A stretch of DNA of 23,033 bases from Flavobacteriales bacterium. Its GTDB lineage: Bacteria; Bacteroidota; Bacteroidia; Flavobacteriales_E; Vicingaceae. The position numbers and the translations under genes were made by a program. Every line of letters starts with the position of its first letter. Positions within the stretch are counted from its first letter, which is position 1. The notes beneath the pieces were generated by a model, which was not told where the DNA came from, did not search any database, and saw only the letters and a program-made list of their open reading frames with translations. Positions 1 through 17,220 of the stretch are shown one piece after another. The DNA is taken from positions 1 through 23,033 of the forward strand of contig JAJCYN010000338.1 in the NCBI GenBank assembly GCA_029262915.1, written 5' to 3'.

Positions 1-705
1 CAAGCCCTAAAGAGCGTTAATATTGCTATGGAAGAAAATAGTGTGACGGCATTTATCGGTCCATCAGGTTGTGGAAAGTCTACGTTTTTACGTTGTTTTA
101 ACAGAATGAATGATTATATCGATGACTTTTCTATTAAAGGGGAAGTCCGAATAGATGGCAAAAAGGTGTACTGGAAAAATGTTGCTGTTGAAGAATTAAG
201 GAAAGAAGTTGGTATGGTTTTTCAAAAACCAAATCCATTTCCTAAATCCATTTTTGATAATGTCGCTTATGGATTAAAAATACAAGGAATTAATGACAAA
301 ACCTTTATAGAAGAACGAGTTATAAAATCATTAAAAGATGTTGCTCTCTGGGATGAAGTAAAAGATGAAATGAAGAAATCTGCACTAGCCCTTTCAGGTG
401 GACAGCAGCAGAGATTATGTATAGCCAGAACACTAGCCGTTGAACCTAAAATTATTTTGATGGACGAACCAACATCTGCCTTAGATCCTATTTCTACTGC
501 TAAGATTGAAGAGTTAATGTTTGAATTAAAGAAAGAGTATACCATTGTAATTGTTACTCACAATATGCAACAAGCTGGTAGAATTAGTGATAAAACAGCT
601 TTTTTTTATATGGGAGAATTGATTGAGTTTGGAGAGACCAAACAAATTTTTACCAACCCTCAAAAAGAAAGAACTCAAAATTACATAACAGGACGTTTCG
701 GATAA
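1..705 (+). CDS. pstB: PstB, phosphate ABC transporter ATPase (5' end cut)
   Basis: ATP-binding subunit of the high-affinity phosphate importer PstSCAB; it works at the cytoplasmic face of the inner membrane and couples ATP hydrolysis to phosphate uptake. The frame is open from base 1, so the gene starts before the window; an internal ATG at 28 is not the real start. Seen in order: Walker A GPSGCGKS (58-81), Q-loop in [11 protein letters not shown] signature LSGGQQQR (about 391-414), Walker B IILMDEP with D-loop SALD, and the H-loop histidine in VTHNMQQ. The QKPNPFP stretch and the FNRMND run after Walker A are typical of PstB rather than of other ABC ATPases. By usual PstB length (about 250 residues) roughly 15-20 residues are missing. 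phoU follows after 11 nt, the classic pst-phoU operon end. Confidence 0.96.
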
Positions 706-716
706 ACAATATAAAT

Positions 717-1385
717 ATGACACAATTAGAATCAGAATTAGATCAAATAAAACAGCAAGTTATCGAAATGATGGACTTGGTAAAAAGTCAATTAGCTAAA
801 GGAAAAGAGGCTGTTTTGACCTTTGATAAAGATTTGGTGCATGAAATAAATGCCAATGAAAATCGAGTAAACGCTATGGAGCTAAACATTGATAGAGATG
901 TTGAAAATTCTTTAGCATTACACAGTCCTGTGGCAATTGATTTACGTTTTGTAATGGCATCTTTTAAAATTAGTGCTGATTTGGAAAGATTAGGAGACAA
1001 TGCTGTTGGAATTGCTAAATACATCAATAATGTTGACGAACAATTGTCTCCAAAAAATCTTAATAAAATTCGTTTTGCTGAAATGTATGAAAATGCCTTG
1101 GCCATGTTGGATGATATTTTTGAAGCTTTTGAAAAAGAAGATACCAAACTAGCAAGAAAAGTATTTATTAAAGATCAAGTATTAAACGAAATTAATAGCG
1201 AAGCAGCCGGTATTGTTATTGAACTAATTAAAGAAAGCCCTGACAAAATTCAAAACTATATTTACCTACTGTCTATTATAAGAAAATTAGAAAGAGTTGG
1301 TGACTTGGCTAAAAATATCGCAGAAGAATTGATTTTTTATATGGAAGCAAAGGTTTTAAAGCATAGAAAAAAGAAACTTAGATAG
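717..1385 (+). CDS. phoU: PhoU, phosphate signalling / Pst regulator
   Basis: All-helical peripheral protein that links PstSCAB to the PhoR sensor kinase, represses the Pho response when phosphate is ample and limits uptake. The 222 residues form two similar three-helix bundles. Each carries the PhoU metal-site type motif: LERLGD at about residues 89-94 and LERVGD at about 191-196, both inside longer helices. The length is usual for the family. It lies 11 nt after pstB on the same strand and is probably the last gene of the pst operon, since a hairpin and then a separate Pho-type promoter follow. The C-terminus is very basic (residues 213-222, rich in Lys and Arg). The family assignment is secure; the signalling role is inferred from known PhoU proteins. 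Confidence 0.95.
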   Translation: MTQLESELDQIKQQVIEMMDLVKSQLAKGKEAVLTFDKDLVHEINANENRVNAMELNIDRDVENSLALHSPVAIDLRFVMASFKISADLERLGDNAVGIAKYINNVDEQLSPKNLNKIRFAEMYENALAMLDDIFEAFEKEDTKLARKVFIKDQVLNEINSEAAGIVIELIKESPDKIQNYIYLLSIIRKLERVGDLAKNIAEELIFYMEAKVLKHRKKKLR

Positions 1386-1471: not shown

Positions 1472-1559
1472 TTAACATAAAGTTAATATTCCTTAACTAT
1501 CTATTAACATAATCATAAAGTAGGTTTTACACCTTAGTCAATTTCTTGTCGTTTCTTTG
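1472..1559 (+). promoter_or_regulatory. Pho-box array and promoter of the 106-residue protein gene
   Basis: TTAAC/TTAAT half-sites start at 1472, 1483, 1493 and 1504 (spacing 11, 10, 11). A weak ATAAA at 1515 and TTTAC at 1526 continue the 11-nt phase. The likely -7 element TTTCTTTG (1552-1559; one mismatch to TAnnTTTG) begins exactly 26 nt after the start of the 1526 half-site, and the ATG lies 24 nt further on. Direct TTAAC-like repeats with 11-nt spacing are the known binding pattern of PhoB/PhoP-type regulators. Here they follow pstB-phoU, so a Pho box is the natural reading. Confidence 0.72.
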
Positions 1560-1582
1560 CTATGAATTAAAACTTAAAAAAG

Positions 1583-1903
1583 ATGAAATTAATTGCTTTA
1601 GTTATAACATTATGTAGTTTGACAACCGTTTTTGCAAATAACAACAATGAAAAAGAAAAGTTGAAAAGCTTTTCGATTAGCGGAAAGGTGATAGATGAGA
1701 ATGAGAGTTTAACAGGGGTTAAAATTGTTTTAGACGGAAAAGAGCGGATTGTTTATACAGATTTTGATGGAAATTTCACTTTAGAAAATGTAATAGCAGG
1801 AAAACATACTATTTCTCTAAGCTTGATAACCTACAACAATAAAGAAATTACCTTCAACTCAGCGGACAAAAACACCCTTGAAATAGAATTAGAGACAAAA
1901 TAA
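1583..1903 (+). CDS. Small exported single-domain CarboxypepD_reg-like protein
   Basis: 106 residues. Residues 1-18 form a Sec signal peptide ending near VFA-NN. Residues about 30-106 are a single beta-sandwich of the CarboxypepD_reg-like / DUF4480 type: SGKVIDENESLTGVKIVLDG, then YTDFDGNFTLENVIAGKH and a final strand run. The same fold forms the N-terminal extension of many Bacteroidota TonB-dependent receptors, including the one at 3613-6426, but here it stands alone with no plug, barrel or enzyme domain. No lipobox cysteine follows the signal peptide, so it is probably periplasmic or secreted. It has its own Pho-type promoter and ends before a strong hairpin terminator. Function unknown; the regulatory context suggests a role in phosphate starvation. 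Confidence 0.85.
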   Translation: MKLIALVITLCSLTTVFANNNNEKEKLKSFSISGKVIDENESLTGVKIVLDGKERIVYTDFDGNFTLENVIAGKHTISLSLITYNNKEITFNSADKNTLEIELETK

Positions 1904-1928
1904 TAGTTGCCTCTTGATAAACTATAGA

Positions 1929-1958
1929 AGCTCCTGTAACCGCAGGGGCTTTTCTTTT
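1929..1958 (+). terminator. Rho-independent terminator after the 106-residue protein gene
   Basis: AGCTCCTG (1929-1936) pairs with CAGGGGCT (1943-1950), with one G-T wobble, and a T-rich tail runs to 1958. It lies 26 nt after the stop codon. The next gene starts 25 nt after the tail with no convincing promoter between, so read-through may supply it. Confidence 0.75.
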
Positions 1959-1983
1959 GACTATTACTTAAATATAAAACCCT

Positions 1984-2445
1984 ATGAGCTTTAAAACAAC
2001 TTTAATCGTAATATCGATACTCTTTAGTACGGCATTATTCAGTCAACAAATCACTAAGAAAAATGGTTTTTATGTCAATGAGAAAGGAGAAAAATACTCA
2101 GGGATTTATATTTCCTATTTTCCGGACAATTCCAAAGAAGCAGTTTTCACCATTAAAAATGGAGTTGAAAATGGTTCGGTTGAATTCTATCATTCAACGA
2201 ATGAAATAATGGAGCAGGGTAATTTTCGAGATGGTGTAAAACATGGGAAATGGGTTAGATGGTCAATTGGAGGGAATAAGTTAGCTGAAGCTAACTACAA
2301 TAAAGGAAAAAAGCAGGGCAAGTGGCTAATTTGGGATGAAAGAGGAACTAAGCGATATGAGATGTTTTACGCTAACGGAGCTAAAACAGGTACATGGATG
2401 ATATGGGATGAGCAAGGACAAATTTCCAATAAAAAACAATATTAG
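1984..2445 (+). CDS. Exported MORN / YwqK-type repeat protein
   Basis: 153 residues with a signal peptide (about 1-20, ending FS-QQ). The body is a run of MORN-like repeats with exact 24-residue period: GS at 64, then GKW at 88, GKW at 112 and GTW at 136, each followed by an aromatic pair (VRWS, LIWDERG, MIWDEQG). Such proteins are often labelled 'YwqK family antitoxin', but that name rests on little evidence and nothing toxin-like sits beside it. MORN-type repeats form beta-hairpin strips for binding, so an envelope or surface binding role is possible. Its start lies just after the preceding terminator, and its stop is followed at once by a Pho-box array serving the next gene. No clear promoter of its own: TTCTTTTG at 1952-1959 is a weak candidate inside the terminator tail. 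Confidence 0.85.
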   Translation: MSFKTTLIVISILFSTALFSQQITKKNGFYVNEKGEKYSGIYISYFPDNSKEAVFTIKNGVENGSVEFYHSTNEIMEQGNFRDGVKHGKWVRWSIGGNKLAEANYNKGKKQGKWLIWDERGTKRYEMFYANGAKTGTWMIWDEQGQISNKKQY

Positions 2446-2446
2446 T

Positions 2447-2502
2447 TTAATAGACTCTTAACACTAGGTTAACCACTAAGTAATGGCGTTCAACTAATTT
2501 TA
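2447..2502 (+). promoter_or_regulatory. Pho-box array and promoter of the Asn-Asn response regulator
   Basis: Half-sites TTAAT (2447), TTAAC (2458) and TTAAC (2469) are spaced exactly 11 nt apart and begin two bases after the stop codon of the preceding gene. The -7 element TAATTTTA (2495-2502; one mismatch to TAnnTTTG) starts 26 nt after the start of the last half-site. The ATG is 10 nt after it, so the leader is very short. Confidence 0.75.
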
Positions 2503-2511
2503 GTATTAGAA

Positions 2512-3189
2512 ATGAAAGCCATGATAAACATACTCAGCAACAATTCTTCAGAATTAGAAAGAACCCATAAACTATTCGAAAGCGAAGGCTTTGATGTTTC
2601 TTCATATTCTGCTGTAAATGAAGAAACCATTAATAATGTTTATAAAAATCATCCTGACATTATTTTACTGGATTTGGATATTGAAAATTCAGATGGAATA
2701 GAATTATGCCATCAATTGAAGTCAGAAAATACATTGAATTCTTTTATTGTAATTTTTACTGAACGTAAAGACGAATACATACAAATTGCGGGGTTTAAAG
2801 CTGGTGCTGATGATTTCATTGTCAAGCCCATTAATCCACGAATATTGATTAAAAGAATTGAGGCACTATTAAAAAGAACCCCTCTTAATCCAAAAGAATC
2901 AGATCCCATGATACTATCCTTTAGAAACTTAAAAATTGACAGATCACGTTACTTAATATACAATGACGGAAAATCTTTTACGCTACCTCGTAAGGAGTTT
3001 GAAATGCTTTATATGCTAATTAGCCAACCACAAAAGGTGTTTTCTCGTGAAGAGATTTTCCAAAAAGTATGGAAAAAAAATAACTGCATGAACTCTCGGG
3101 TTATAGATGTTCACATTAGAAAAATTCGAGAGAAAATAGGAGAAAACACCATCAATACTGTTAAGGGTATTGGTTATCAATTAGCATAA
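2512..3189 (+). CDS. OmpR/PhoB-type response regulator with degenerate receiver
   Basis: 225 residues: receiver (about 1-120) and winged-helix Trans_reg_C domain (about 135-225). The phospho-acceptor position (D54 in LLDLD), T83 and K105 (VKP) are kept. The acidic pair that binds Mg2+ in normal receivers is replaced by Asn-Asn (N10, N11, in ILSNNS); the paralogue at 8252-8929 has D10-D11 at the same aligned places. Phosphorylation by the usual chemistry should therefore be weak or absent. The recognition-helix region VIDVHIRKIREK is almost the same as TIDVHIRKLREK in that paralogue, so both may read the same DNA sites. No histidine kinase is adjacent, and the gene sits under a three-repeat Pho box. 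It may be a phosphorylation-independent modulator of the Pho response. The start could also be the ATG three codons later. Confidence 0.9.
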   Translation: MKAMINILSNNSSELERTHKLFESEGFDVSSYSAVNEETINNVYKNHPDIILLDLDIENSDGIELCHQLKSENTLNSFIVIFTERKDEYIQIAGFKAGADDFIVKPINPRILIKRIEALLKRTPLNPKESDPMILSFRNLKIDRSRYLIYNDGKSFTLPRKEFEMLYMLISQPQKVFSREEIFQKVWKKNNCMNSRVIDVHIRKIREKIGENTINTVKGIGYQLA

Positions 3190-3304
3190 GTTTATACCTA
3201 CAATTCTGAGTCATCATACTCACCTGAATCTGTTTCTATTCCAACAAAACCAACTTTAACTTCGGCTCTATTCTTTTTCCAAGAAACATTAAATTATAAA
3301 ATAC

Positions 3305-3360
3305 TTAATGATATGATAATTTTTCTTTAATCAGACTGTTCAATCTCGATTCTAATTTTG
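3305..3360 (+). promoter_or_regulatory. Pho-box array and promoter of the 65-residue protein gene
   Basis: Half-sites TTAAT (3305), ATAAT (3316) and TTAAT (3327) at 11-nt spacing are followed by a perfect -7 element TAATTTTG (3353-3360), which starts exactly 26 nt after the start of the last half-site. The ATG of the small gene is 26 nt downstream of the element. The architecture matches the promoters at 2447-2502 and 8184-8232. Confidence 0.72.
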
Positions 3361-3385
3361 ATGTAAAATATTAAATGATAAAATT

Positions 3386-3583
3386 ATGAAACGAACAAGA
3401 ATCTATTTAAGCAAAACCGACTACTATGCTTCTCCTGTACCAAGGTATGATGAGAAAGAAAATTTGCAACAGCAATCAAGTAAAAGGGAGCGAAAAAGAT
3501 GGAGATTTATAAAGGTAAAGTTGTTTTCTTATGCGAGTATAAATAGTACTATTGAATCTGAAGGATGGGAATTAGGAATATAA
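3386..3583 (+). CDS. Small basic protein of unknown function, Pho-type promoter
   Basis: 65 residues. It is not recognised. There is no signal peptide or membrane segment. The N-terminal half has Tyr-rich stretches (IYLSKTDYYASPVPRYD), the middle is strongly basic (KRERKRWR, about residues 33-40) and the tail is short (ESEGWELGI). Alone such a short reading frame would be doubtful. A perfect Bacteroidota -7 element and a phased Pho-box array stand at the right distance upstream, which argues for a real gene. It ends 29 nt from the convergent stop of the TonB-dependent receptor gene. It could be a nucleic-acid- or phosphate-binding regulator, but nothing in the sequence decides this. Confidence 0.6.
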   Translation: MKRTRIYLSKTDYYASPVPRYDEKENLQQQSSKRERKRWRFIKVKLFSYASINSTIESEGWELGI

Positions 3584-3612
3584 ACAGAACCTATCCCCAA
3601 ACAACAATTGAT

Positions 3613-6426
3613 TTATCCTATCAAATACTTAATTCCTAAACTAAATGTAGCCCCTTTTTTGTAAGAATTAAAGATATATTCTTCGCTTTTATAACTGTAT
3701 GTCTTTTTAACAAGTGGGTTTAAAATATTTTGAGCCTTAAACTTTAAGCTAAAATGTTTGCCTAGTTTTTTGCTGATGTTAAAATCTAATTGATGAACCG
3801 GCTGTTGATAAACATTTGGGGTTGCTCCCACAATAACTACCGAAATTTTCTCTCCCGAAACATTGTAACTTAGGTTAGCAGAAAGTCCCAAAGAATCATT
3901 ATTATATCCTAAGTAAAAATTAATGATGTATGGAGATTGTCCGAACAAACTTCTTGTATCATCTGCTTCAGAATCACTTGCTCTAATTAATTCCAATTCT
4001 TGAGCATCTATTCCTACTTCTGAGAAAACATAGGTAAAGTTACCTCCCACATTGAAGGTGTTTACTGAATCAGACAGAAAACCAAGCTTCTTTTTAATTT
4101 CAAATTCAGCTCCATAAACTGTTGCTTTATCAATATTCCTCCAGGTTAATTCTGAGTTCTGAGCTTGAGTATTAAATACCAATTCTATTGGGTTTGTAAA
4201 AGATTTGTAAAATCCTCCTACAGAAATAAGTTCGCCAAAGTTAGGAAAGAGTTCATACCTCAAATCAAGGTTGTTTACCAATGTTCTCTCTAACTCTGGA
4301 TTTCCAACGATAATCCAGTTAGTTGAAAAATCATAGGTTGCAAAGGGTGCTATTTCTCTAAATGTAGGTCTGGCCAATGTTCTTGAATATGCAGCTCTCA
4401 AATTGCTTTTTCCTGTGAGGGCATAAGTTGTATTTAAGGCTGGCAATATATCAGCCTCTTTCAATTTTCCTACTTTCTCATCTTTATCGAAACTCCTCAC
4501 AAAAATATCGGTTGTTTCTAATCGAGCTCCAGTTACAACCCTTAGTTTTTTGGTAGCCCAAATGTCTCCCATTAAATATCCTGCAAAAACAGATTGATCA
4601 GCTGAATAACTATTCCTACGTTCTGTTGCATCCTCAATATAGAGGTAATCCGAAACTGGGTTTCCTGCTGTTGGTAACACCATATTATCGTTATTCAAAT
4701 AATCAGCAACATTGCCATTATAAGTTAAAAAACCTTGTGACCGATAATTGTACCTGTTCTCTGTTAAGATCCTTTCTTGTCTCAACATTGCCCCTCCAAA
4801 TTTAATTTTTGATACTTTTTCATCTTTTTCTATAAGGTCAAATTCAAAGTTTATTTTCCCATCGGTTGTTGTTTGGTTTAACTCTCTATAATATCTTGTT
4901 GGAACGGGATAAATAGATGCCTGAATGCTATAATTGGTATCTCCAGTAAATTCGTCAACGATATAATCATTGGAAAAATAACGTAAATCTGGTTGGTTCT
5001 GATTGGATTGTGAATAGGCGTAGATCCAATCTACTTTTAACTTCTTTAATCCTTCAAAAGAATGTTCTCCTTTGGTTTGGTAACTACTTAAGGCATTTTC
5101 TTCATATTCTAATGCTCTTGTTTGAAAGAATAAGCCTTTTTGATCTGCAGGAATCTCCCCTTCTTGAAAAGTAGTGGTTTTTACTCCGTTTTGATTTCTT
5201 AAATAAACAAACCCGAGCTTATGGTTGGGAGTGATTTTATAAGAAAGATTAGCAATCGCTCCCCACAATACATTTTCTTTAGATTTGGTATCTTTTAATG
5301 TTCTTTGTGCATTTAACTCATTCACATCATCCACATTTCCTGTTAACTCGTAACGATTGGTAAAAGCTTCATCGTCTCTATGGTCAAATGTCTTAGAGTA
5401 AGATAGTCCAACAACAAATCCTAAACCTTTTCCAAATAGTGTGGTTTGATTTCCAACAGACATTGAATAACCTTGGTTTAAAAAGGATTTTTTCTCACTA
5501 ACGTCCATCTCTTTATTAAAAGATTTTCCCACTGCTTCTAAACGGTCATTTTCTACAAACAATGCCGGTATATTTCCAGTTGAAGCAGGTTGATCTCTAG
5601 TTCCATTATCAAAACTTAAATAATCTGTGCCTCCACCTTCATAAGTTAAAAATCCATCTTTTAAACTAGAGGCTGTATTGTAACCCAATGAACTGGAAAA
5701 TTGAAAAGTAAATTGTTCTGGAAAATCTTTTGTTTCAATATCAACCAATCCACCCGTAAAGCTACCAGGAAGGTCGGGAGTAAAAGATTTTATGACTTTC
5801 ATATTTTCAATCATATTTGTTGGAAACAAATCCAACTGTACTGCATTTCTATTTGGATCTAATCCCGGTATTTCAGCTTTGTTGATAGTGGTTTTGCTGT
5901 ACCGATCACTCAGCCCTCTTACATAGACATATTTTCCACCTTCTATTGTTAAGCCTGTTACTCTTTTAGCAGCAGAAGCAGCATTACCATCACCTCTTTT
6001 GGCGATTTCTTTAGCTCCGATTACCTCCATTACTGTAGCTGATTTTTTCTTGACCTGCAACAAATAGGATTCATTCTTTCTATCGGCTTTGGCTGATATG
6101 GTAAACGTGTTAATTGCCATAGCCGAGGTGCTTAGCGAAAAATTGTGAGAAACTGTTTCTCCATCTTTAATGGTAAGTTTAATTGTATCTGAACGATAAG
6201 AAATGTAGGAACAGATAAGTTGATACTCCCCAGGCTTAACATTAGTAATTCGGTAATTTCCGTCTATATCTGCCATTGACCCTGTTGTGGTCCCAAATAA
6301 GAAAACAGTTGCTCCAATTAGTTCTTCTCCCGATTCAGGATCAATTACTTTTCCTTGAATAACTCCTTGTGAAAAACTGATGTTCATACTTAGTGTAAAG
6401 AGTATGGTATATAATATTTTGTTCAT
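3613..6426 (-). CDS. TonB-dependent outer-membrane receptor with CarboxypepD_reg domain
   Basis: 937 residues. Signal peptide at 1-19 (ends ISFS-QG); CarboxypepD_reg-like domain at about 22-105 (GKVIDPESGEELIGATVFL, DIDGNYRITNVKPGEYQL); TonB plug at about 125-240 (VKKKSATVMEVIGAKEIAKR, YVYVRGLSDRYSKTTI, GGLVDIETKDFPE); then a 22-stranded-type barrel to a C-terminal strand ending GATFSLGIKYLIG. It is an energy-dependent importer in the outer membrane. There is no SusD partner next to it, so it is not a standard SusCD glycan system. The upstream neighbour on the same strand is a lipoprotein gene, separated by a terminator, and both have Pho-type promoters. The likely substrate is a phosphate source such as a phosphorylated organic compound; this is inferred only from regulation and place. 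Confidence 0.93.
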   Translation of the reverse strand: MNKILYTILFTLSMNISFSQGVIQGKVIDPESGEELIGATVFLFGTTTGSMADIDGNYRITNVKPGEYQLICSYISYRSDTIKLTIKDGETVSHNFSLSTSAMAINTFTISAKADRKNESYLLQVKKKSATVMEVIGAKEIAKRGDGNAASAAKRVTGLTIEGGKYVYVRGLSDRYSKTTINKAEIPGLDPNRNAVQLDLFPTNMIENMKVIKSFTPDLPGSFTGGLVDIETKDFPEQFTFQFSSSLGYNTASSLKDGFLTYEGGGTDYLSFDNGTRDQPASTGNIPALFVENDRLEAVGKSFNKEMDVSEKKSFLNQGYSMSVGNQTTLFGKGLGFVVGLSYSKTFDHRDDEAFTNRYELTGNVDDVNELNAQRTLKDTKSKENVLWGAIANLSYKITPNHKLGFVYLRNQNGVKTTTFQEGEIPADQKGLFFQTRALEYEENALSSYQTKGEHSFEGLKKLKVDWIYAYSQSNQNQPDLRYFSNDYIVDEFTGDTNYSIQASIYPVPTRYYRELNQTTTDGKINFEFDLIEKDEKVSKIKFGGAMLRQERILTENRYNYRSQGFLTYNGNVADYLNNDNMVLPTAGNPVSDYLYIEDATERRNSYSADQSVFAGYLMGDIWATKKLRVVTGARLETTDIFVRSFDKDEKVGKLKEADILPALNTTYALTGKSNLRAAYSRTLARPTFREIAPFATYDFSTNWIIVGNPELERTLVNNLDLRYELFPNFGELISVGGFYKSFTNPIELVFNTQAQNSELTWRNIDKATVYGAEFEIKKKLGFLSDSVNTFNVGGNFTYVFSEVGIDAQELELIRASDSEADDTRSLFGQSPYIINFYLGYNNDSLGLSANLSYNVSGEKISVVIVGATPNVYQQPVHQLDFNISKKLGKHFSLKFKAQNILNPLVKKTYSYKSEEYIFNSYKKGATFSLGIKYLIG

Positions 6427-6451
6427 TTAATAAGTTGTTTTTATTTTACTA

Positions 6452-6507
6452 CAAAGAAAATTATCATCTCTAATTAAGAGGTTAAACAAATGTTAAGTCT
6501 CTGTTAT
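6452..6507 (-). promoter_or_regulatory. Pho-box array and promoter of the TonB-dependent receptor gene
   Basis: On the minus strand, TTAAC at 6485-6481 and 6496-6492 and ATAAC at 6507-6503 lie 11 nt apart. The -7 element TTTCTTTG (6459-6452) starts exactly 26 nt after the first base of the proximal half-site and ends 26 nt before the ATG. The same octamer serves the promoters at 1552-1559 and 8052-8045. Confidence 0.75.
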
Positions 6508-6591
6508 CAGTAAGCAGTTGTACAGGAAAAAGAAGATGGAGGATTATTTTCAATACTCAACGTGCAAGTCTGCTTAGTTAAGGGTTTTAGC

Positions 6592-6622
6592 AAAAACAAA
6601 AGCCCCTGAAGATTCAGAGGCT
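6592..6622 (-). terminator. Terminator after the lipoprotein gene
   Basis: Arms AGCCTCTGAA and TTCAGGGGCT (6622-6601 on the minus strand, one wobble) around a short loop, followed by a T-rich run (6603-6592). It lies 22 nt after the lipoprotein stop codon and separates it from the receptor gene, so the two genes are separate transcription units. The other strand also has a short T run, but no plus-strand gene ends here. Confidence 0.78.
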
Positions 6623-6644
6623 TTTAGTAATTATTAAGTTAATA

Positions 6645-8006
6645 TTATGGGAATGTTAACGTCCAACCTTTTGCCCAGTTGGTTCCATCAAAAGCACCAA
6701 TGTATGTTACATTATCATACCAAGTATCTCCAGATGCAATTCCGGTTCCTAAACTTGAACTTGGAACAGGGTTACTTGCAGAAATTCCTGCTGCAGTTGT
6801 ACTTACATTTGTAATACTTGCATGCCCTGATAAATCTACAGCATTATTATCAACGATATTGTTACTCCCAATATTTGAAAGTACAATTCCTGCAAATTTT
6901 AATTCTCCTGCATCCAATCTCGATTTAGAATCTTCTCCTGATGCTAAGTCTTCAATATCGATTCCTTTACCAAAATCGTGAAATACTGAGTTGTGGTATT
7001 CTCCACCAGCATTATCTCTGAATGTTAACGCTCTACTAGAACCATTACCTATATAAGTAGCATTGTAAATCATCGGTGTCGCATAAGGAAGCCCATCTTC
7101 TGGAGAAGTACCTCCATCATGTTCACCACCTCTATCTGAATTGGCATTTTCAATAGCAACCCAAAACTGTCCTCTACCTCTAAAACCTTGGTCATAATCA
7201 TAAGAATCGTCTAATACATTTGAAACTAAAATGTGTTTTAAACTTGGAACACCTCCAAAAAACTCAATACCATCATCTGCATTGGCAACAACTTCAATGT
7301 GGTGAATTGATGTACTTGAACCGACACCACCTAAAGTTAATCCATTGATTTCATTTCCTGCACCAATGTCAGTTCCTCCATGTCGAATAGAAACATAGCA
7401 CATTGAACCTGAATTATCAGCATCATTTGAACCTCCATATGCACCTCTTGGTTCAGAAGTAGGAATTCCCTCAATGTTCTGAGTTGTTGGCACAGTATTT
7501 AAGCTTGCGTCTCCTAGTAATATTACACCACCCCATTGCCCTGTTGTAGTTAACGATACCGACCCATCTAAAGGATCTGCTTCAAAGGTAAATATGATAG
7601 GTTGAGCAGCTGTCCCACAAGCGTTAATCATACCACCTTTAGCAACAATCAATGCCGAGGCATTAGCTCCAGTTCCTGATTTTCCTTTTATTACTGTTCC
7701 AGGTTCTATGGTTAGCGTTTGTCCTGAGTTTACAAAAACAAAACCATCTAATAAGTAAGTATTGTTACTTGTCCAAGTAGCGGTTCCTGTTCCGGATCCG
7801 TTATCTGTAATGGTTATGGTTTCATTGGTTACAGGTGGTATAGTTTTATAAGTACAGGATCCATCATCTTTATCAGCTTCAGGATTGTAATTTTCTGCGG
7901 TTATATCAGTACAACCTTCTTTTTTAGAACACGAAGTGAATACACTTCCAAGTCCAACGGTAATTGCCGTAATTAATAACAAGTTTTTTGTCTTCATTTT
8001 TTTCAT
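6645..8006 (-). CDS. Large exported lipoprotein, putative beta-helix, partner of the receptor
   Basis: 453 residues from the ATG at 8006 (the ATG at 7997 is also possible). A frame extension to a GTG at 8045 is rejected because it overlaps the -7 promoter element. Residues 1-25 are a lipoprotein signal ending in FTSC, so Cys26 should be lipidated. A calcium-binding-like linker follows (CTDITAENYNPEADKDDGSC), seen in many Bacteroidota surface proteins. The rest is rich in Gly, Asn, Ser and Thr with short beta strands (TYLLDGFVFVNSGQTLTIEPGT near the start), like a right-handed beta-helix, and ends GWTLTFP. No type IX secretion sorting domain is visible. Relatives next to TonB-dependent receptors are often mislabelled 'multidrug transporter'; that function is not supported here. 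It is probably an outer-membrane surface protein that binds or presents a substrate for the receptor at 3613-6426. Confidence 0.8.
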   Translation of the reverse strand: MKKMKTKNLLLITAITVGLGSVFTSCSKKEGCTDITAENYNPEADKDDGSCTYKTIPPVTNETITITDNGSGTGTATWTSNNTYLLDGFVFVNSGQTLTIEPGTVIKGKSGTGANASALIVAKGGMINACGTAAQPIIFTFEADPLDGSVSLTTTGQWGGVILLGDASLNTVPTTQNIEGIPTSEPRGAYGGSNDADNSGSMCYVSIRHGGTDIGAGNEINGLTLGGVGSSTSIHHIEVVANADDGIEFFGGVPSLKHILVSNVLDDSYDYDQGFRGRGQFWVAIENANSDRGGEHDGGTSPEDGLPYATPMIYNATYIGNGSSRALTFRDNAGGEYHNSVFHDFGKGIDIEDLASGEDSKSRLDAGELKFAGIVLSNIGSNNIVDNNAVDLSGHASITNVSTTAAGISASNPVPSSSLGTGIASGDTWYDNVTYIGAFDGTNWAKGWTLTFP

Positions 8007-8044
8007 TTTTTTTAATCGTTTAGTTTTATAATTTTTATATGCCA

Positions 8045-8111
8045 CAAAGAAAGGGAGGGTTTATTATTAGATGATGAACTCAATATTATTCTTAATTTAC
8101 TATCATGTTAA
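8045..8111 (-). promoter_or_regulatory. Promoter of the lipoprotein gene with a weak Pho-box
   Basis: The -7 element TTTCTTTG (8052-8045, minus strand) equals that of the receptor gene. One perfect half-site TTAAC lies at 8111-8107, in phase (26 + 33 nt upstream of the -7 start), with ATAAT at 8089-8085. The two other in-phase positions match only 3 of 5 bases. Regulation by the same factor is plausible but weaker than at the other five promoters. Confidence 0.45.
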
Positions 8112-8183
8112 GGGAACATTATGTTTAACGTAAATATTTCATAGAAAAACACAAGCCCTTTGATGATAACACAGATACAACAA

Positions 8184-8232
8184 TTAATTAATGTTTAATT
8201 AACCTCAATAAAATAAGGCTACAGTATTTTTG
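8184..8232 (+). promoter_or_regulatory. Pho-box and promoter of the PhoB-like regulator gene
   Basis: TTAAT (8188) and TTAAC (8199) are 11 nt apart, with a second overlapping TTAAT pair at 8184 and 8195. A perfect -7 element TATTTTTG (8225-8232) starts 26 nt after the 8199 half-site. The ATG at 8252 is 20 nt beyond it. This suggests autoregulation of the regulator. Confidence 0.68.
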
Positions 8233-8251: not shown

Positions 8252-8929
8252 ATGAGTAATGAAAAAATACTATTAGTTGACGATGAAACGGACATTCTTG
8301 AATTTTTAAGCTATAATTTAACCAAAGCGGGTTACGATGTATTTACTTGCACAAGTGGGTTGGAAGCTATAGCCGTTGCTAAGAAGAGTAAACCTGATTT
8401 AATAGTCTTAGATGTAAGCATGCCTGAGATGGACGGTATTGAAACTTGCCAAGAGATAAGAAATACAGAGGGTTTGGAGAGTACATTGATTACATTTTTA
8501 AGTGCTAGAGGTGAAGATTACTCACAAGTTGCAGGATTTGATGCCGGTGCTGATGACTTTATTACCAAACCAATAAAACCTAGATTATTAGTTAGTCGTG
8601 TTAAAGCTATATTAAGGAGAAGGTCAGGAACAGGAGAGATATTAACTAATGAGCAAGAAGGAAGTATAAGAGTTGATAGAGAAAAACACTTGGTTTATAA
8701 AGATAGTCAGGAATACTCTTTACCAAAAAAGGAATTTGAATTACTCTCACTGCTTATTTCAAAACCAGGAAAAGTTTTTACTCGTGATATAATTTTAACA
8801 AGTATATGGGGAGATGATGTGGTGGTCGGAGATAGAACAATCGATGTTCACATTAGGAAGTTGAGGGAGAAATTTGGAGAAAAATTTATAAAAACGATTA
8901 AAGGGGTTGGTTATAAATTTGAACAGTAG
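8252..8929 (+). CDS. phoB: PhoB-like response regulator
   Basis: 225 residues from the ATG at 8252; a TTG two codons upstream is not preferred. The receiver (about 1-120) has all key residues: acidic pair D10-D11 (LLVDDE), phospho-acceptor D54 (VLDVSMPEMDG), S84 at the switch Thr/Ser position and K106 (TKP). A winged-helix DNA-binding domain fills about 135-225 (KKEFELLSLLISKPGKVFTRD, TIDVHIRKLREKFGEKFIKTIKGVGY). This is the canonical copy of the pair with the gene at 2512-3189. Its place in a pst-phoU neighbourhood and the Pho-boxes around it make it the likely phosphate regulator PhoB. The partner kinase PhoR is not in the window. The mobile element begins directly downstream, so a kinase gene may have been separated from it. 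Confidence 0.85.
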   Translation: MSNEKILLVDDETDILEFLSYNLTKAGYDVFTCTSGLEAIAVAKKSKPDLIVLDVSMPEMDGIETCQEIRNTEGLESTLITFLSARGEDYSQVAGFDAGADDFITKPIKPRLLVSRVKAILRRRSGTGEILTNEQEGSIRVDREKHLVYKDSQEYSLPKKEFELLSLLISKPGKVFTRDIILTSIWGDDVVVGDRTIDVHIRKLREKFGEKFIKTIKGVGYKFEQ

Positions 8930-9238
8930 TTTTCTTCTGAGCTATAATTGAAATACCTTCAAACTAAATTTAAGGAATTTACTATACAAATGAAGAACTG
9001 ATATTACTGTATATACTCAAATAAGGTACCTTGAAGGTTAAAGCGATGATATAGATTAAAAATTGTTATTTAACCAATCTCCAACCGTTCACTAAAATGA
9101 CAAGTGATTTAAGAGAAAATTAAGTCGAAACTATTTAGCTGCAAGAGGAATCTCCGCAGGGCGAGAAAGCTCTTTTAAATTTGTGAGGCACGAGCAAACT
9201 TTAAATGTGCTTGAACTTGCGTTGGCTTATTCCAATAT
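8930..9238 (+). other. Gene-free junction between chromosome and mobile element
   Basis: 309 bases between the phoB-like gene and the hsdM stop, likely to hold the left element boundary. It contains inverted arms ACCTTCAA (8955-8962) and TTGAAGGT (9031-9038), a hairpin-like TTTAAATTTG (9174-9183) facing CAAACTTTAAA (9195-9205) that might end hsdM transcription, and a plus-strand open frame from about 9108 (reads NYLAARGISAGRESS near 9129-9173) running into the hsdM 3' end. That frame has no ATG near its beginning. No tRNA gene and no recognised attachment core were seen. Confidence 0.5.
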
Positions 9239-10906
9239 TCAAATTGTTTTTAGCCCTAATTCTTTCAAAAATTTGTTATGTTCCTTAGTTTTCTCTTCAA
9301 TACGTTCATTAATTGAAGCTAAATTTTTATTTACTTCCTTTAAATCAATCTGCACTTCATCTTCTGCTGTACTTACATACCTTGAAATATTCAAATTGTA
9401 ACCATTCTTTTCAATCTCTCCCATTGAAACTCTTCGAGCATAACGTTCAAGTTTCTCTGGACGGTTTTTGTAAGTATCTATTATAGACTGAATATCATTA
9501 GGTTCATTTTTATCGTAAACCCCATCTTTTTTACCGTCTCTTAATTCATTTTGCCTTTTGCCTTTTTTGAAATGCTCACTTGCATTGATGAAAAGTACAT
9601 CATCTTCCTTTTTACATTTCTTTAATATCAGAATACAAACAGGAATTCCAGTTGAATAGAACAGATTAGATGGCAAGCCAATAACTGCATCTATATTATT
9701 ATCTTTTAAAAGCTTGGTCCTAATACGTTCTTCTGCACCGCCACGGAATAATACACCATGAGGTAATATAATTGCCATTGTTCCTTCATTACTCAAGAAA
9801 TGGAAGCCATGCAATAAAAATGCAAAATCTGCTGCTGATTTTGGCGCTAGACCATAACTCTTGAATCGAAAATCTTCTGCAAGGGTATCGTTTGGTTCCC
9901 AACGCAAACTAAATGGAGGATTAGCAACGATCGCATCAAATTCCGTTTTCTTGGATGGATTCATCTCATTTAAAACATCCCATTGGTTTTTTAAAGTGTC
10001 TCCATGAAATATTTCGAATTCGGTGTCTTTCATGCCATGCAACAGCATGTTCATTCTTGCCAAGTTGTACGTAGTAACATTATTCTCTTGTCCGTAGATT
10101 TTGCCTACTGTACCCTTATTGTCCTTAATTCGCTTTCTTACATTCAGCAAAAGGGAACCCGAGCCACATGCCATGTCCAGCACCTTGTCTAGTTTGTTTT
10201 TCTTTCCTGTAGTTGGATCTTGGCTATCTAAGGTTACAATTTCAGAAAGAATGGTAGAAATTTGCTGAGGCGTATAAAACTCACCTGCTTTCTTACCAGA
10301 ACCTGCAGCAAATTTTCCAATCAAATATTCGTATGCATCACCTAAGGTATCAGTATCAGCAGAAAAATCTACAATTCCTTCCGCTATGTTTTGGATAATA
10401 GTACACAGTTTATCATTACGTTCTTTTGGCGTTTTACCTAATTTATCAGAATTCAAATTGATTTCTGAAAACAATCCATGAAAAGTATTGTCAAAGGATT
10501 TGTTTTCTATATAGCGAAACCCACATTCTAGCGTAACTAATAGCTCATCATTTTGGGTACGTGCTAATTCGGTAATGTTGCTCCATAAATGTTGTGGTTG
10601 GATAACATAATGCACCTTTTTACGCATTTGTTTTTCAAATTCTTCGGTATCCTCTTTGTTTTCTTGGTACCAAATTTCTAATGGTGGTGGGACAATGAAG
10701 TCAGGTCGTTTGTCTTTTGATGGGCTTTTAGGATAGTCTCTACCTAATTCTTTTTTTGCTGACTCTTCGTAATTGTGCGATAGGTATCGTAAAAATAAAA
10801 ACGATAGCATGTAGTCACGAAATGAATCTGCATTCATTGATCCGCGAAGATTACTTGCTATATTCCAAAGGGTTTTCCCTAATTTATCTTGATCTGGTTG
10901 TGCCAT
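9239..10906 (-). CDS. hsdM: HsdM, type I restriction-modification DNA methyltransferase subunit
   Basis: 555 residues. It transfers a methyl group from S-adenosylmethionine to the N6 of adenine; with HsdS it modifies, and with HsdS and HsdR it restricts. Seen: N-terminal helical HsdM_N domain (about 1-170), FYTP (about 210-213), AdoMet-binding motif I DMACGSG (244-250) and catalytic motif IV NPPF (329-332), the N6-adenine type. The C-terminal helical tail (about 515-550) fits contact with HsdS. It is the last gene of the operon, 8 nt after the PrrC-like gene. Having hsdM last, after hsdR and hsdS, differs from the common M-S-R order. Length is normal and no frameshift was seen, so the methylase should be active. 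Confidence 0.96.
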   Translation of the reverse strand: MAQPDQDKLGKTLWNIASNLRGSMNADSFRDYMLSFLFLRYLSHNYEESAKKELGRDYPKSPSKDKRPDFIVPPPLEIWYQENKEDTEEFEKQMRKKVHYVIQPQHLWSNITELARTQNDELLVTLECGFRYIENKSFDNTFHGLFSEINLNSDKLGKTPKERNDKLCTIIQNIAEGIVDFSADTDTLGDAYEYLIGKFAAGSGKKAGEFYTPQQISTILSEIVTLDSQDPTTGKKNKLDKVLDMACGSGSLLLNVRKRIKDNKGTVGKIYGQENNVTTYNLARMNMLLHGMKDTEFEIFHGDTLKNQWDVLNEMNPSKKTEFDAIVANPPFSLRWEPNDTLAEDFRFKSYGLAPKSAADFAFLLHGFHFLSNEGTMAIILPHGVLFRGGAEERIRTKLLKDNNIDAVIGLPSNLFYSTGIPVCILILKKCKKEDDVLFINASEHFKKGKRQNELRDGKKDGVYDKNEPNDIQSIIDTYKNRPEKLERYARRVSMGEIEKNGYNLNISRYVSTAEDEVQIDLKEVNKNLASINERIEEKTKEHNKFLKELGLKTI

Positions 10907-10914
10907 AATTTCAA

Positions 10915-11991
10915 TTAAAATTTAAAATTGTATTTCGTAATCAGTTTACCGAACACATCATTGAAAAGTGTTTCTTCTGCTTCTGACATTTCGTTAAATT
11001 GATATTGATAAGCTTGTTTGTGTGAGTGCGCATTTATTTCATCCGCTACTCGATCAACATCTTCATCTTTAATACCAATATCTTTTAGAATTCTTCCTAT
11101 CTTCCTTGAGCCTATAAAAGAGTTAATATTTTCTAATACCTGCCTCAGCAATACCATGTGAAATTTGTAAAGTTGTTTATTTTTTGCTTCTTGTAAGGTC
11201 TGAAGAAGGTGAAGGTGATATAAGAAAACATCACTATTTGTACCTTTAAAACTTAAGTCGCCATCCTTATTTTTTAGAATAACAGTTTTTGTTAGTTTTC
11301 CAACGCCTCCTTTACTATCATCACTCTTAAGCCAAGTTGCAAGAATCGAAAACAAGCCAATATGATGAGTAGAAATGATAATTTTTTCTTTCTTCAAATA
11401 ATTGACTTTTATCAGTTCTAAGATAGACCTAGTTGTAACAAAAATATTGTGTTCATCTAAACTAGAAACAGGGTCGTCTATAAGGATATGGGCATTCTGT
11501 TGATCTGCCCATCCATCAACTTCAAAGAGTGCCAAATAGAAACACCATACGAATATTCTTTCTTCTCCTCGTGATATTTTGATTGGTGATAGAGTTTCTT
11601 CATCTACAAAAAATGTAATAGATTCAATTCCGTCCTCAGGGTTCTTATGTTGATTTATCTTGAAGTCATATTTTGGGGAAAATGGTTCCAACTTTTCTCT
11701 GATCATTTCATCATCTTCTATCAGAAAGCTATGAAACTGATTTAGTTTACTTGGTACTACGGTTAATTTTAAGTCTGCATTTTCATTAGGCTCATCATTA
11801 TCCCAAACAAACAAGTCTTCACTGAATGCGTTAAAATATACACCAGCATGTATCCCTTTATTTTTTGCCTTAGTAAAATCTTTATACGCAACAGATAATC
11901 TTGTTTTCCCAGTTGAGTTAAGAGCATAAATAAGTATGATATTTTCATTTAACCCATTTAATTCTTCTGCTATTTCATTTATTGATGCCAT
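10915..11991 (-). CDS. PrrC-like ABC-ATPase, candidate anticodon nuclease
   Basis: 358 residues. The N-terminal ABC-type ATPase has Walker A ALNSTGKT (23-30), an NAFSEDLFVWDND segment (54-66), a signature-like ISRGEE (139-144), Walker B ILIDDP with D-loop SSLDEH (169-181) and the H-loop STHH (207-210). The C-terminal part (about 255-358) has LLRQVLEN, giving Arg283 and Glu287 in an R-x3-E pair, and later NAHSHKQ with His322/His324. In PrrC, the tRNA-Lys anticodon nuclease, a catalytic Arg-x3-Glu pair is followed by a His about 35-40 residues on, and the gene is embedded in a type I restriction locus. Here it lies 3 nt after hsdS and 8 nt before hsdM. PrrC is kept silent by the restriction complex and is unleashed when a phage blocks restriction. 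The alternative is a restriction-linked ATPase (RloA-type) without nuclease activity. The function is inferred from motifs and context. Confidence 0.75.
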   Translation of the reverse strand: MASINEIAEELNGLNENIILIYALNSTGKTRLSVAYKDFTKAKNKGIHAGVYFNAFSEDLFVWDNDEPNENADLKLTVVPSKLNQFHSFLIEDDEMIREKLEPFSPKYDFKINQHKNPEDGIESITFFVDEETLSPIKISRGEERIFVWCFYLALFEVDGWADQQNAHILIDDPVSSLDEHNIFVTTRSILELIKVNYLKKEKIIISTHHIGLFSILATWLKSDDSKGGVGKLTKTVILKNKDGDLSFKGTNSDVFLYHLHLLQTLQEAKNKQLYKFHMVLLRQVLENINSFIGSRKIGRILKDIGIKDEDVDRVADEINAHSHKQAYQYQFNEMSEAEETLFNDVFGKLITKYNFKF

Positions 11992-11994
11992 ATC

Positions 11995-13239
11995 TTAAAT
12001 CTCAATTTTTGGAAATAAACCTTGTATCAAGCCTTTTTTATGAATTTGCAATCGCTCTATTTTTTCTCTTTGTGCAATAATTAGCTCGCATAAAGCAGAA
12101 AAACAAGAAATTATTTTTTCTGCTTCTTTTTTTGATGGAGGAACCTTAACAATAAGTGTTTTAAAAAAATCAACAACACTTACATTAAGTAACCCGTGAT
12201 CACGGGCCCCTTCTTGAGCTATTTTATCAATTTCCACATTAAAAACGCCTGATTCAAAATAATGCTCAAAATAACTTTTGTTAAAGCCGTCTTGACATTT
12301 AAAACATATATAAAGAGTAGACAGAACTCCTTTATCATATTCTTTTAAGACTTTTATTGCTCCCATAGGATAATCCTTTGAATAACTTTTATTATAAGCA
12401 AATTCTCCTTCCATAATTAAATAATAATTAGTCACATCCTTTGATGCAATTTTCTTATTGAAATACTCTTCCTGATTTATTAAACCCTGTTGAGCAGATA
12501 TGGTTAATAAATTTTGATTGTTTTTAATATTTTTACGTGTTACTCTTTGAAATGCTTGGTTAAAAGGGATTTCATTCCAGTCCTTTGAGCCTTGAAACTC
12601 CGGAAAACGTAAATCTGGTTTGGATTGATGTTCCTGAGGAAACATGTTTCTCATTAAGGCTTTTTCGTGCTTTTTAAGGATAACCAGTTTAGCGTTATGG
12701 GAGGCTATCAATTCATCTAATAATGATAGGCTTGAAGCTATTTTTTGTTGCTCTAGGGCTGAGGGTTTTGGAAGTAAAATCTCAGAAAAATGTTTATAAC
12801 TGACCATTTTCCCATCTCTAATACCTTCTAAGTTTTTATTTAGATGTCGAATAAATAAATCAGTTTTAAAGTAATGTTTAAAAAAAACATCCTCAATCTT
12901 TATTTTCTTTCTAAGTATAGTATATGCAGGACTGCAAATACCCTTGTAAAGGGAATATTCAATTCCTCCTTGAAAAGACCTTAGACTTATTATGAAATCA
13001 CCTATTTCAACAACTTTATAGCTCGCAATACTTTGTTTTGATGCAATAACAGTATAGTTAATCATTTCTCTTGGAACTGCACCTTGATCTTGAGTAATAG
13101 CAAGTACAGGTAAGTCTGAATTATGACTTTTATTTGAAATTGGCTCAAACAACTCATTTCCATATAAATACGCCCACTCTTTATCCTTTGTGAACATAGG
13201 AAAACGTAACTCTGGAAGTATTTTTTTCTTCTTACTCAT
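11995..13239 (-). CDS. hsdS: HsdS, type I restriction-modification specificity subunit
   Basis: 414 residues. It determines the bipartite DNA target of the methylase and restriction complex. There are two target-recognition domains with separating helices. Domain 1 is about 9-160 and opens with LRFPMF and W22. Conserved helix 1 is about 161-203 (EQQKIASSLSLLDELIASH to LMRNMFPQ). Domain 2 is about 209-370 and opens with LRFPEF and W221. Helix 2 is about 371-414 (KEAEKIISCFSALCELIIAQ to GLIQGLFPK). The two halves are parallel repeats in layout, but the recognition parts differ, so the target should be asymmetric. The start overlaps the hsdR stop by 8 nt and the PrrC-like gene begins 3 nt after the stop. 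Length is normal. The target sequence cannot be read from the protein. Confidence 0.95.
   Translation of the reverse strand: MSKKKKILPELRFPMFTKDKEWAYLYGNELFEPISNKSHNSDLPVLAITQDQGAVPREMINYTVIASKQSIASYKVVEIGDFIISLRSFQGGIEYSLYKGICSPAYTILRKKIKIEDVFFKHYFKTDLFIRHLNKNLEGIRDGKMVSYKHFSEILLPKPSALEQQKIASSLSLLDELIASHNAKLVILKKHEKALMRNMFPQEHQSKPDLRFPEFQGSKDWNEIPFNQAFQRVTRKNIKNNQNLLTISAQQGLINQEEYFNKKIASKDVTNYYLIMEGEFAYNKSYSKDYPMGAIKVLKEYDKGVLSTLYICFKCQDGFNKSYFEHYFESGVFNVEIDKIAQEGARDHGLLNVSVVDFFKTLIVKVPPSKKEAEKIISCFSALCELIIAQREKIERLQIHKKGLIQGLFPKIEI
12602..13215 (-). repeat. 17-bp near-identical direct repeat inside hsdS
   Basis: GGAAAACGTAAATCTGG (12602-12618) and GGAAAACGTAACTCTGG (13199-13215), written on the plus strand, differ at one base. 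They are 597 nt apart, which is 199 codons and therefore in frame. They encode the LRFPxF starts of the two recognition domains, and recombination between them could exchange or delete a domain. Confidence 0.8.
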
Positions 13240-16228: not shown

Positions 16229-17220
16229 TGAGTTTTTTCTTTCAATTTCTCCATTATTTTATCCAGTAGCACATCAAAATCAAGCGATTCGCCATGTATC
16301 ATACTGCTTTGCATTTCTTTGTAATCAGATTTATACTTTTCCAAGAACTCATCAGGCGGAATGATGTTGATATTTTGTAAAGTTAACGTTTCATAATCTG
16401 TTGTTTTCATTGGTGTTAATACTCTTCTATGAGCAATTATGCTTTCAAAAAGGACTTTGTTTTTTAAAGCTGCTTGTCCGTACTCAGAATTTAGTATTTG
16501 CCCAATATCATAGAAATGTCTTGACATGCGTAAATGCCTTATTTTTTCTGATGGTTTTTGAAATTCTTCATGTAACAGAATGAGTTTTTCTAAAAATGTT
16601 TTTTGAGGGTTGGTAGCGTTTACAACAAATTCCTCTTCCTTAAATTCCGTTTCAGGATAATGCTCATCAATCATTGATTTGAGAGCAATTTCTTGGTTGG
16701 GTTCTATTAATGATCTTGAACTAACTTCAATTAAAACTCTTTTTGGTAAATAGGACAGGTCATCAAATAGTGATTGATAATTTACTTTAATGATTTCAGG
16801 GTCTTGATCAGATATCTGTGTGTTGTCTACCACCAGTTCAAATAGACTTTCATCAACTCCGTATTCTACTAATTGTTTTTGAAGTAATTCAGCTAAATCG
16901 GTAGAAACGAATGAGTGACAAGCTTTTCTCAATTTGCGAATTTGTCCTGTTGATAAATCTCCTTCAAACCCTAAATACTTCCTGTCGATTCCTAAGTCAA
17001 TATCTTCCGAAAATCGTTGAATCAAATTAAAGGCTTTGCTCAATGAAGTTCCTCCTTTGAATATTAAATGACTTCCCAAATCAGAAGTGAATATCATGCG
17101 TAACATGAGTGTTACCCAAGCATCTTTTTCAACAGCTTGTGGTGGTAAGTTTGTTCTTACACCAATTTGGATAAACAACTCAACTTGTTCTTCTTTTGTT
17201 AATGTTAGCCAATTGTTCAT
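16225..17220 (-). CDS. abiEii: AbiEii/AbiGii-type nucleotidyltransferase toxin
   Basis: 331 residues. It is the toxin of the type IV toxin-antitoxin pair AbiE, an abortive-infection system; family members act as nucleotidyltransferases, and characterised relatives add nucleotides to tRNA. Seen: GGTSLSK (56-62) and SEDIDLG (71-77), the G-G-T/S and D-x-D motifs of the DUF1814 / AbiEii fold. The full length is kept. It overlaps abiEi by 4 nt (ATGA) and hsdR by 4 nt (ATGA). Such strict packing between an AbiE pair and a type I restriction operon implies shared regulation: when AbiEi binds its operator, the restriction genes should be held down as well. The family assignment is solid; the exact target is unknown. 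Confidence 0.93.
   Translation of the reverse strand: MNNWLTLTKEEQVELFIQIGVRTNLPPQAVEKDAWVTLMLRMIFTSDLGSHLIFKGGTSLSKAFNLIQRFSEDIDLGIDRKYLGFEGDLSTGQIRKLRKACHSFVSTDLAELLQKQLVEYGVDESLFELVVDNTQISDQDPEIIKVNYQSLFDDLSYLPKRVLIEVSSRSLIEPNQEIALKSMIDEHYPETEFKEEEFVVNATNPQKTFLEKLILLHEEFQKPSEKIRHLRMSRHFYDIGQILNSEYGQAALKNKVLFESIIAHRRVLTPMKTTDYETLTLQNINIIPPDEFLEKYKSDYKEMQSSMIHGESLDFDVLLDKIMEKLKEKTQ

Follow-up and report, generated by a model that had tools for sequence, protein, structure and literature searches.

The window analysed here is a whole contig of 23,033 nucleotides (nt), C338 (JAJCYN010000338.1), a single contig of the fragmented 2.76 Mb genome of a Flavobacteriales bacterium. It begins within pstB, followed by phoU and, further on, by six genes on both strands that are each preceded by an array of TTAAC-like units at 11-nt steps. 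These arrays are very probably PHO boxes, to which a PhoB-type regulator would bind at low phosphate, and one of the genes that they precede encodes a PhoB paralogue with a degenerate receiver (RR1). Genes and arrays are as follows, with array units given by their starting positions.

1 to 705, plus strand: pstB, its 5' end lying beyond the contig.
717 to 1385, plus strand: phoU (PF01895; TIGR02135 at 173.4 bits against a cut-off of 130.25).
1472 to 1559, plus strand: probable PHO-box array of the 1583 gene, with units at 1472, 1483, 1493, 1504, 1515 and 1526 and the -7 element TTTCTTTG at 1552-1559.
1583 to 1903, plus strand: putative CarboxypepD_reg-like protein of 106 amino acids.
2447 to 2502, plus strand: probable PHO-box array of the 2512 regulator gene, with TTAAT at 2447, TTAAC at 2458 and 2469, and the -7 element TAATTTTA at 2495-2502.
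2512 to 3189, plus strand: RR1, PhoB-like regulator with a degenerate receiver and an altered polymerase-contact loop.
3305 to 3360, plus strand: PHO-box-like array of the 3386 open reading frame (ORF), with TTAAT at 3305, ATAAT at 3316, TTAAT at 3327, and the -7 element TAATTTTG at 3353-3360.
3386 to 3583, plus strand: ORF of 65 amino acids, with a homologue in the relative L007.
3613 to 6426, minus strand: TonB-dependent receptor.
6452 to 6507, minus strand: probable PHO-box array of the receptor gene, with ATAAC at 6507, TTAAC at 6496 and 6485, and the -7 element TTTCTTTG at 6459-6452.
6645 to 8006, minus strand: lipoprotein-like exported protein (lipoprotein character and beta-helix look judged by eye).
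8045 to 8111, minus strand: probable PHO-box array of the lipoprotein gene, with TTAAC at 8111, GTAAA at 8100, ATAAT at 8089, TTCAT at 8078, and the -7 element TTTCTTTG at 8052-8045.
8166 to 8232, plus strand: probable PHO-box array of the 8252 regulator gene, with ATAAC at 8166, ACAAC at 8177, TTAAT at 8188, TTAAC at 8199, and the -7 element TATTTTTG at 8225-8232.
8252 to 8929, plus strand: RR2, PhoB-like response regulator with its phosphorylation residues retained.

Direct reading found TTAAC or TTAAT sites at all six promoters for which the original prediction had cited them, and all six have TTAAC-like units that begin 26, 37, 48 nt and so on (26 + 11n) before the start of the -7 element. 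The 26-nt distance claimed for five promoters was exact in each (1526-1552, 2469-2495, 3327-3353, 6485-6459 and 8199-8225), whereas the sixth, the minus-strand promoter of the gene at 8006, had been wrongly set outside the rule: its units are weaker but in register, with TTCAT at 8078 standing 26 nt from the -7 element at 8052. Some details were also amended. Sites were where they had been placed, but the units at 1526 and 3327 read TTTAC and TTAAT; the -7 element at 2495 was correctly located but reads TAATTTTA, without the final G; and the 11-nt spacing holds except for one 10-nt step, from 1483 to 1493, in the 1583 array.

The nearest relatives in the collection are Flavobacteriales metagenome-assembled genomes, two of which carry the label Vicingus or Vicingaceae. 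The cluster is present in eight relatives, six of them with 1583-like and 1984-like genes, RR1, the TonB-dependent receptor, the lipoprotein and RR2; in L008 and L012 contig ends cut the cluster, and some genes are missing there. The lipoprotein-like gene, for whose product neither Pfam nor NCBIfam gave a match, co-occurs with the receptor gene in the 8 syntenic relatives. In alignments with relatives the array units appear, by eye, as conserved blocks. The four inner units of the 1583 array are in register in all seven aligned sequences (the window included), TTAACN6TTAAC of the 2512 array is kept in 7/7, the receptor-gene array is present in 9/9, the register of the lipoprotein-gene array is identical in 9/9, and that of the 8252 array is found in eight of nine, L009 having failed the -7 pattern used. 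The 3386 array is the weakest of the six; in two relatives its promoter either has TTAAC at 26 nt (L007) or stands without a homologous ORF start (L006).

Chance agreement was assessed with dinucleotide shuffles of the six promoters (2000 trials; half-site TT[AT]A[CT], loose -7 element). An 11-nt pair was observed in four of six promoters and the 26-nt distance in five of six, against shuffle means of 0.26 and 0.07, and none of the 2000 shuffles matched either observed count. The pattern for this test was picked after viewing the window, and the weight therefore lies on other genomes. A register test drew on five groups of promoters, 41 instances in all (5 from the window and 36 from relatives), the RR1 promoter of L017 being excluded from the alignment because its start is unclear; the -7 element could be chosen blind to the half-sites in 39 of these, 4 of the 39 having several -7 candidates. 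Over the 39 instances, offset 26 with spacing 11 was the best of 198 combinations, at 4.00 of 5 matches; the runner-up (3.69) is the same array shifted one unit upstream, and the following one scored 2.80. The same combination also came top with the window promoters alone.

Scanning the genome itself with the 19-nt consensus CTTAACATTAACTTAACAT (up to 3 mismatches) gave 10 matches, against 3 in the reversed sequence used as control. Matches fall at NptA on contig C247 (three), porin O/P on C241, PhoB on C247, NptA on C169, PstS on C197 and the 1471 site of the window, and the remaining two, at unrelated places, look like chance. Such a scan, with a comparison to the pstS and porin promoters, had been suggested as a check, and both promoters were recovered by the consensus. 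Among promoters that had not been used in finding the rule, those of PstS, NptA (C169), the porin and PhoB fit best at 26 nt, and that of NptA on C247 at 27.

For the family (46 genomes), the pattern was two exact half-sites with six free bases between them, a gap of 11-31 bases, and TNNNTTTG. Matches by gap were 25 at 21 (the 26-nt distance), 27 at 22, 5 at 20 and 7 at 23, with a mean of 2.1 outside 20-23. The receptor gene accounts for 11 of the 25 gap-21 matches, which were assigned via fetched sequence or identity to aligned promoters; RR1 accounts for 2 and NptA (Na/Pi cotransporter; genera g2, g9, g10 (three), g13 and g14) for 7, a further 3 belong to porin-linked operons with an NptA relative (all in genus g6), and the last 2 lie where there is no plausible promoter. 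Outside the window-type cluster, then, Na/Pi-cotransporter genes or operons of six genera follow 10 of 12 gap-21 matches, some of these genes being mutual orthologues, and at gap 20 there are two further NptA promoters in genus g16. The arrangement most likely marks genes that respond to phosphate shortage, since it is found before the phosphate-uptake genes of relatives. When gap 21 alone was sought in 33 more complete genomes among the family's, 18 matches were found against 4 in the reversed control. In the operons of genus g6 (L145 2046-3941, L146 and L156) two genes, for proteins of 251 and 372 amino acids, lie between box and NptA relative; their L145 copies are without a Pfam match, and the proteins are candidates for a phosphate-related role.

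The order-level scan covered only family genomes (33), and the class was scanned for that reason. In its 197 genomes gap 21 gave 47 matches, in 40 genomes; moving the gap to 16 with all else equal left 5 matches, in 5 genomes, none of them at a phosphate-type gene as judged by the printed N-termini. The 43 matches outside the family were inspected (26 loci and 17 fetched sequences). Thirteen of them, spanning six families with four from one genus, precede phosphate genes: PhoU_div in 7, PHO4 in 2 (one assignment resting on an identical printed N-terminus), Porin_O_P in 3 and a PhoB-like regulator in 1. A moxR-type ATPase gene follows another five (identified by Pfam in three cases and by N-terminus in two), three precede CarboxypepD_reg outer-membrane proteins of the receptor type, and the others precede various genes or none. 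The moxR-type matches (L187, L188, L191, L205 and L206) come from one family (f52), and the genes at L212 and L218 resemble the window lipoprotein by eye.

Linkage of pstB-phoU, NptA and PhoB-PhoR is seen, and the presence of a regulator-kinase pair on C247 together with a PhoU above the TIGR02135 cut-off points to a Pho regulon. PhoR lies behind the 8252 regulator in five of the eight relatives and is missing in two, and one contig stops within the regulator. The genome holds two PhoB copies, that of the window (8252-8929) and that of C247 (L109, 2626-3300), 78% identical; PhoR adjoins the C247 copy only. RR2 has a canonical receiver, with the acidic pair, D53 and K105, the residues with known functional roles in receiver domains, and C247 PhoB likewise retains the receiver residues. 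TIGR02154 and NF053854 are the best NCBIfam matches of both RR2 and C247 PhoB; the C247 kinase is below the NCBIfam PhoR cut-offs, its best matches being PnpS (255.2 of 400) and phoR_proteo (238.8 of 334.2). In E. coli PhoB, W184, G185, V190 and D192 are reported for polymerase binding (PMC3348028), and all four are retained in 14 of 14 aligned PhoB-type sequences, RR2 and C247 PhoB included, a set that leaves aside three (L240, L242 and L244) of eight further PhoB loci.

The features to be looked for in Pho boxes are found together here: 11-bp direct repeats, a fixed 26 nt to the -7 element, and sites at pst, porin, phoB and transporter genes. Judged from these comparisons of sequence, the arrays are very probably PHO boxes, whose direct repeats would be bound at low phosphate by a PhoB-type regulator taking the place of a -33 element. 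Under phosphate scarcity PhoR would phosphorylate this regulator, which would occupy the tandem repeats of the CTTAACATTAACTTAACAT consensus head-to-tail. The last repeat, 26 nt before the -7 element, would coincide with what is presumably the place of the -33 element in Bacteroidota promoters; the bound regulator could then substitute for that element and hold RNA polymerase through a sigma contact, as in the model for PhoB of E. coli at -35. A last unit over the -33 place thus fits activation by -33 replacement. The -7 consensus is reported as TAnnTTTG (PMC9723704).

The same overlap is equally compatible with occlusion of the -33 place, that is, with a PhoB-type regulator that binds the boxes as a repressor and is released at low phosphate. 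In Riemerella anatipestifer a mutant of the PhoPR-type pair had 8-fold higher pstS mRNA (PMC5399024), so that the sign of regulation may differ. Repression is nevertheless unlikely, given that the four polymerase-binding residues are kept throughout the PhoB-type sequences and that a B. fragilis phoB mutant had a mere trace of pstC expression (PMC3547664). We infer that the binder is C247 PhoB, RR2 or both, that it activates rather than represses, and that phosphate is the signal.

Besides the Riemerella mutant, several results weigh against the PHO-box reading. The genome is 72.6% complete and in 536 contigs. Loose patterns lacked specificity, with 40 matches against 33 and 67 against 42 in the reversed control over this genome; TTAACN{1,11}TTAAC gave 276 against 492. 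These patterns and, among the matches listed, a list of TTAAC-TTAAC spacings were uninformative, and the strict patterns and the consensus were used instead. With all gaps taken together the family gave 100 matches against 90, and the class-wide reversed control was not low (18 at gap 21; 14 at gap 16). What counts as evidence is therefore the preferred gap and the genes that are hit, and not the number of matches. Thirty of the 43 class-wide matches outside the family are away from classical phosphate genes, and several of the 13 at phosphate genes are orthologues from one genus or family. Both regulators miss the NCBIfam PhoB cut-offs (TIGR02154 296.2 and NF053854 270), RR2 scoring 203.1/195.4 and C247 PhoB 219.9/212.4. 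The loose-pattern totals and the 33% G+C of the window also favour chance similarity in AT-rich intergenic DNA, read selectively. That explanation is scarcely credible in view of the shuffles (0/2000), the conservation in relatives and the fall from 47 to 5 matches on a shift of the gap alone, and the argument that AT-richness poorly explains one fixed geometry has held up on these three grounds. The sequence checks that had been named at the outset came out positive. Taken together, the scans of the genome, family and class and the linkage to PhoR support the Pho-type regulon that had been proposed.

The matches at gap 22 had at first passed for the same boxes, but 18 of the 27 (their places compared by reading; the other 9 were assigned in part) were separated from them, since what follows is a candidate small RNA next to an RprXY-like pair. 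This second promoter type has four TTAAC units in steps of 10, 10 and 11, with 27 nt to the -7 element, and adjoins a kinase-regulator pair whose regulator has RprY as its top NCBIfam match (339.2 bits, cut-off 370). Since TTAAC arrays also occur there, they are alone no proof of membership in the Pho regulon, and another regulator of the OmpR family, RprY-like for example, might read TTAAC tandems in general, the phosphate link being secondary. This is quite improbable for the arrays of the window, as the 26-nt class stands at phosphate transporters, porins, PhoU-like genes and phoB across genera and families, whereas the second type has another spacing and another distance.

The element behind the second promoter type was followed with the 20-mer CCTGTTTAGTTAGTGCAAAA (up to 2 mismatches), which occurs in 24 of 46 family genomes and 3 of 16 genera, with up to 7 copies each; the reversed pattern gave one match. 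Sites include L086, L090, L095, L098, L100, L155 (about 8857-9030) and L164 and, in the genome itself, C15:8334 and C319:2821. One type lies behind the four-TTAAC promoter adjoining the RprXY-like pair, with a hairpin and a T-run after it. The element is a candidate for a multi-copy family of small RNAs. No Rfam family matched it at gathering score, with only chance-level matches below, and searching texts for the core brought no result. In another copy type, at L116, L117, L118, L139 and L142, the opposite strand has what looks by eye like a hairpin terminator containing the complement of the 20-mer core, which could thus pair with the candidate small RNA.

RR1 retains the recognition helix RxIDVHIRKIRE, and its receiver in the window departs from the canonical form in having S,N as the acidic pair, with D53 and K105 retained. 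The pair is not intact in any of 12 readable RR1s (that of L017 being unreadable), and the phospho-aspartate is lost in all four RR1s from other genera and retained in all nine of the window genus. Of 13 RR1-type sequences, which represent five genera, 12 have lost D192 and 12 have lost G185, whereas the PhoB-type sequences keep both in 14/14. C247 PhoB, searched against ten genomes, found PhoB in all ten (72-100% identity) and an RR1-type protein in eight (seven at 42-46%, G031 at 35%); in G040 an interrupted RR1-like frame adjoins NptA, and G043 gave no RR1-type protein at this identity level. A regulator near PhoB in L269 (G040, 43% identity) was excluded as an RR1 because its recognition helix differs. 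The RR1 promoter has a unit at 26 nt in the window genus, and in all five other genera checked a TTAAC or TTAAT unit stands at that exact distance; these five include L154 (genus g14), whose RR1-like frame stops early and is outside the residue counts. Sequence features thus tentatively suggest a built-in brake on the Pho response, one possible role in which RR1 would read the PHO box, would probably be unphosphorylatable and would recruit polymerase poorly; as its own promoter is boxed, RR1 would be produced under PHO-box activity, as a competitor of phosphorylated PhoB. A phosphorylation-independent co-activator is the alternative.

The predicted regulon comprises pstSCA(B-phoU), NptA (C247 and C169), porin O/P (C241), phoB-phoR and the six window genes. 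Because C197 ends past pstSCA and the window starts within pstB, pstB-phoU probably completes a boxed pst operon begun on C197. The boxes connect a TonB-dependent receptor, a lipoprotein-like protein and two small putative proteins to phosphate scavenging, and TTAAC-N6-TTAAC-N21-TNNNTTTG aids the reading of the phosphate regulon from sequence in uncultured Bacteroidota. The regulon also includes a gene for a possible paralogue of the activator reduced to DNA binding, a directly testable case. Further along the window, on the minus strand (9239-17798), are type I restriction-modification genes (HsdM, a sub-threshold HsdS match, HsdR and an AAA_13 protein), and an AbiEii-DUF6088 toxin-antitoxin-like pair comes after them; this block occupies the position where five relatives carry phoR after RR2.

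Among known systems, the E. coli pho half-site, CTGTCAT, is unlike the TTAAC units here, and the PhoP box of Bacillus subtilis, with TT(A/C/T)ACA repeats in steps of about 11 bp, is near to them, although that system belongs to another phylum and has another promoter geometry. The E. coli pho box and PhoB share with the present arrays direct repeats, tandem binding, a pst target, a site at phoB and the overlap with a sigma-contacted upstream promoter element (PMC10294691, PMC3348028); promoter grammar is -35/-10 there and -33/-7 here. Response regulators with pseudo-receivers have been described (PMC12632262; ChxR, PMC3960148; HP1043, PMC8345958), and RR1 likewise is of OmpR/PhoB type without phosphorylation residues. 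It differs in belonging to a predicted Pho regulon, with a PHO box before its gene, in its altered polymerase-contact loop, and in that its genome also holds intact PhoB paralogues.

Repeated pho boxes are well known, and a TTTAACA motif for PhoP is already published (PMC9603813). In the literature search this Riemerella motif was the only described box found for the phylum, and neither the 26-nt geometry nor an RR1-like element was found, either of which may still be published; the promoter geometry and the PHO-box-driven PhoB paralogue are possibly new. The R. anatipestifer motif, from DNA affinity purification sequencing, has TTTAACA as its most conserved letters, and its PhoPR-type regulator gave gel shifts at phoPR, a TonB-dependent receptor and moxR (PMC9603813), the last resembling the five class-wide matches at moxR-type genes. 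Differences are that no promoter distance or 11-nt phasing was found stated in the available part of that report, and that the motif was present at 579 of 583 peaks (764 genes), far beyond a phosphate regulon (PMC9603813). In Flavobacterium johnsoniae the main text, as available, is without 'Pho box', 'motif' or 'promoter' (PMC8115612). The likeness of its PUSIV/phoBR cluster to the window is by gene type, PhoB lying near a TonB-dependent receptor and an outer-membrane lipoprotein, and there receptor and lipoprotein are strongly induced without phosphate (PMC8115612).

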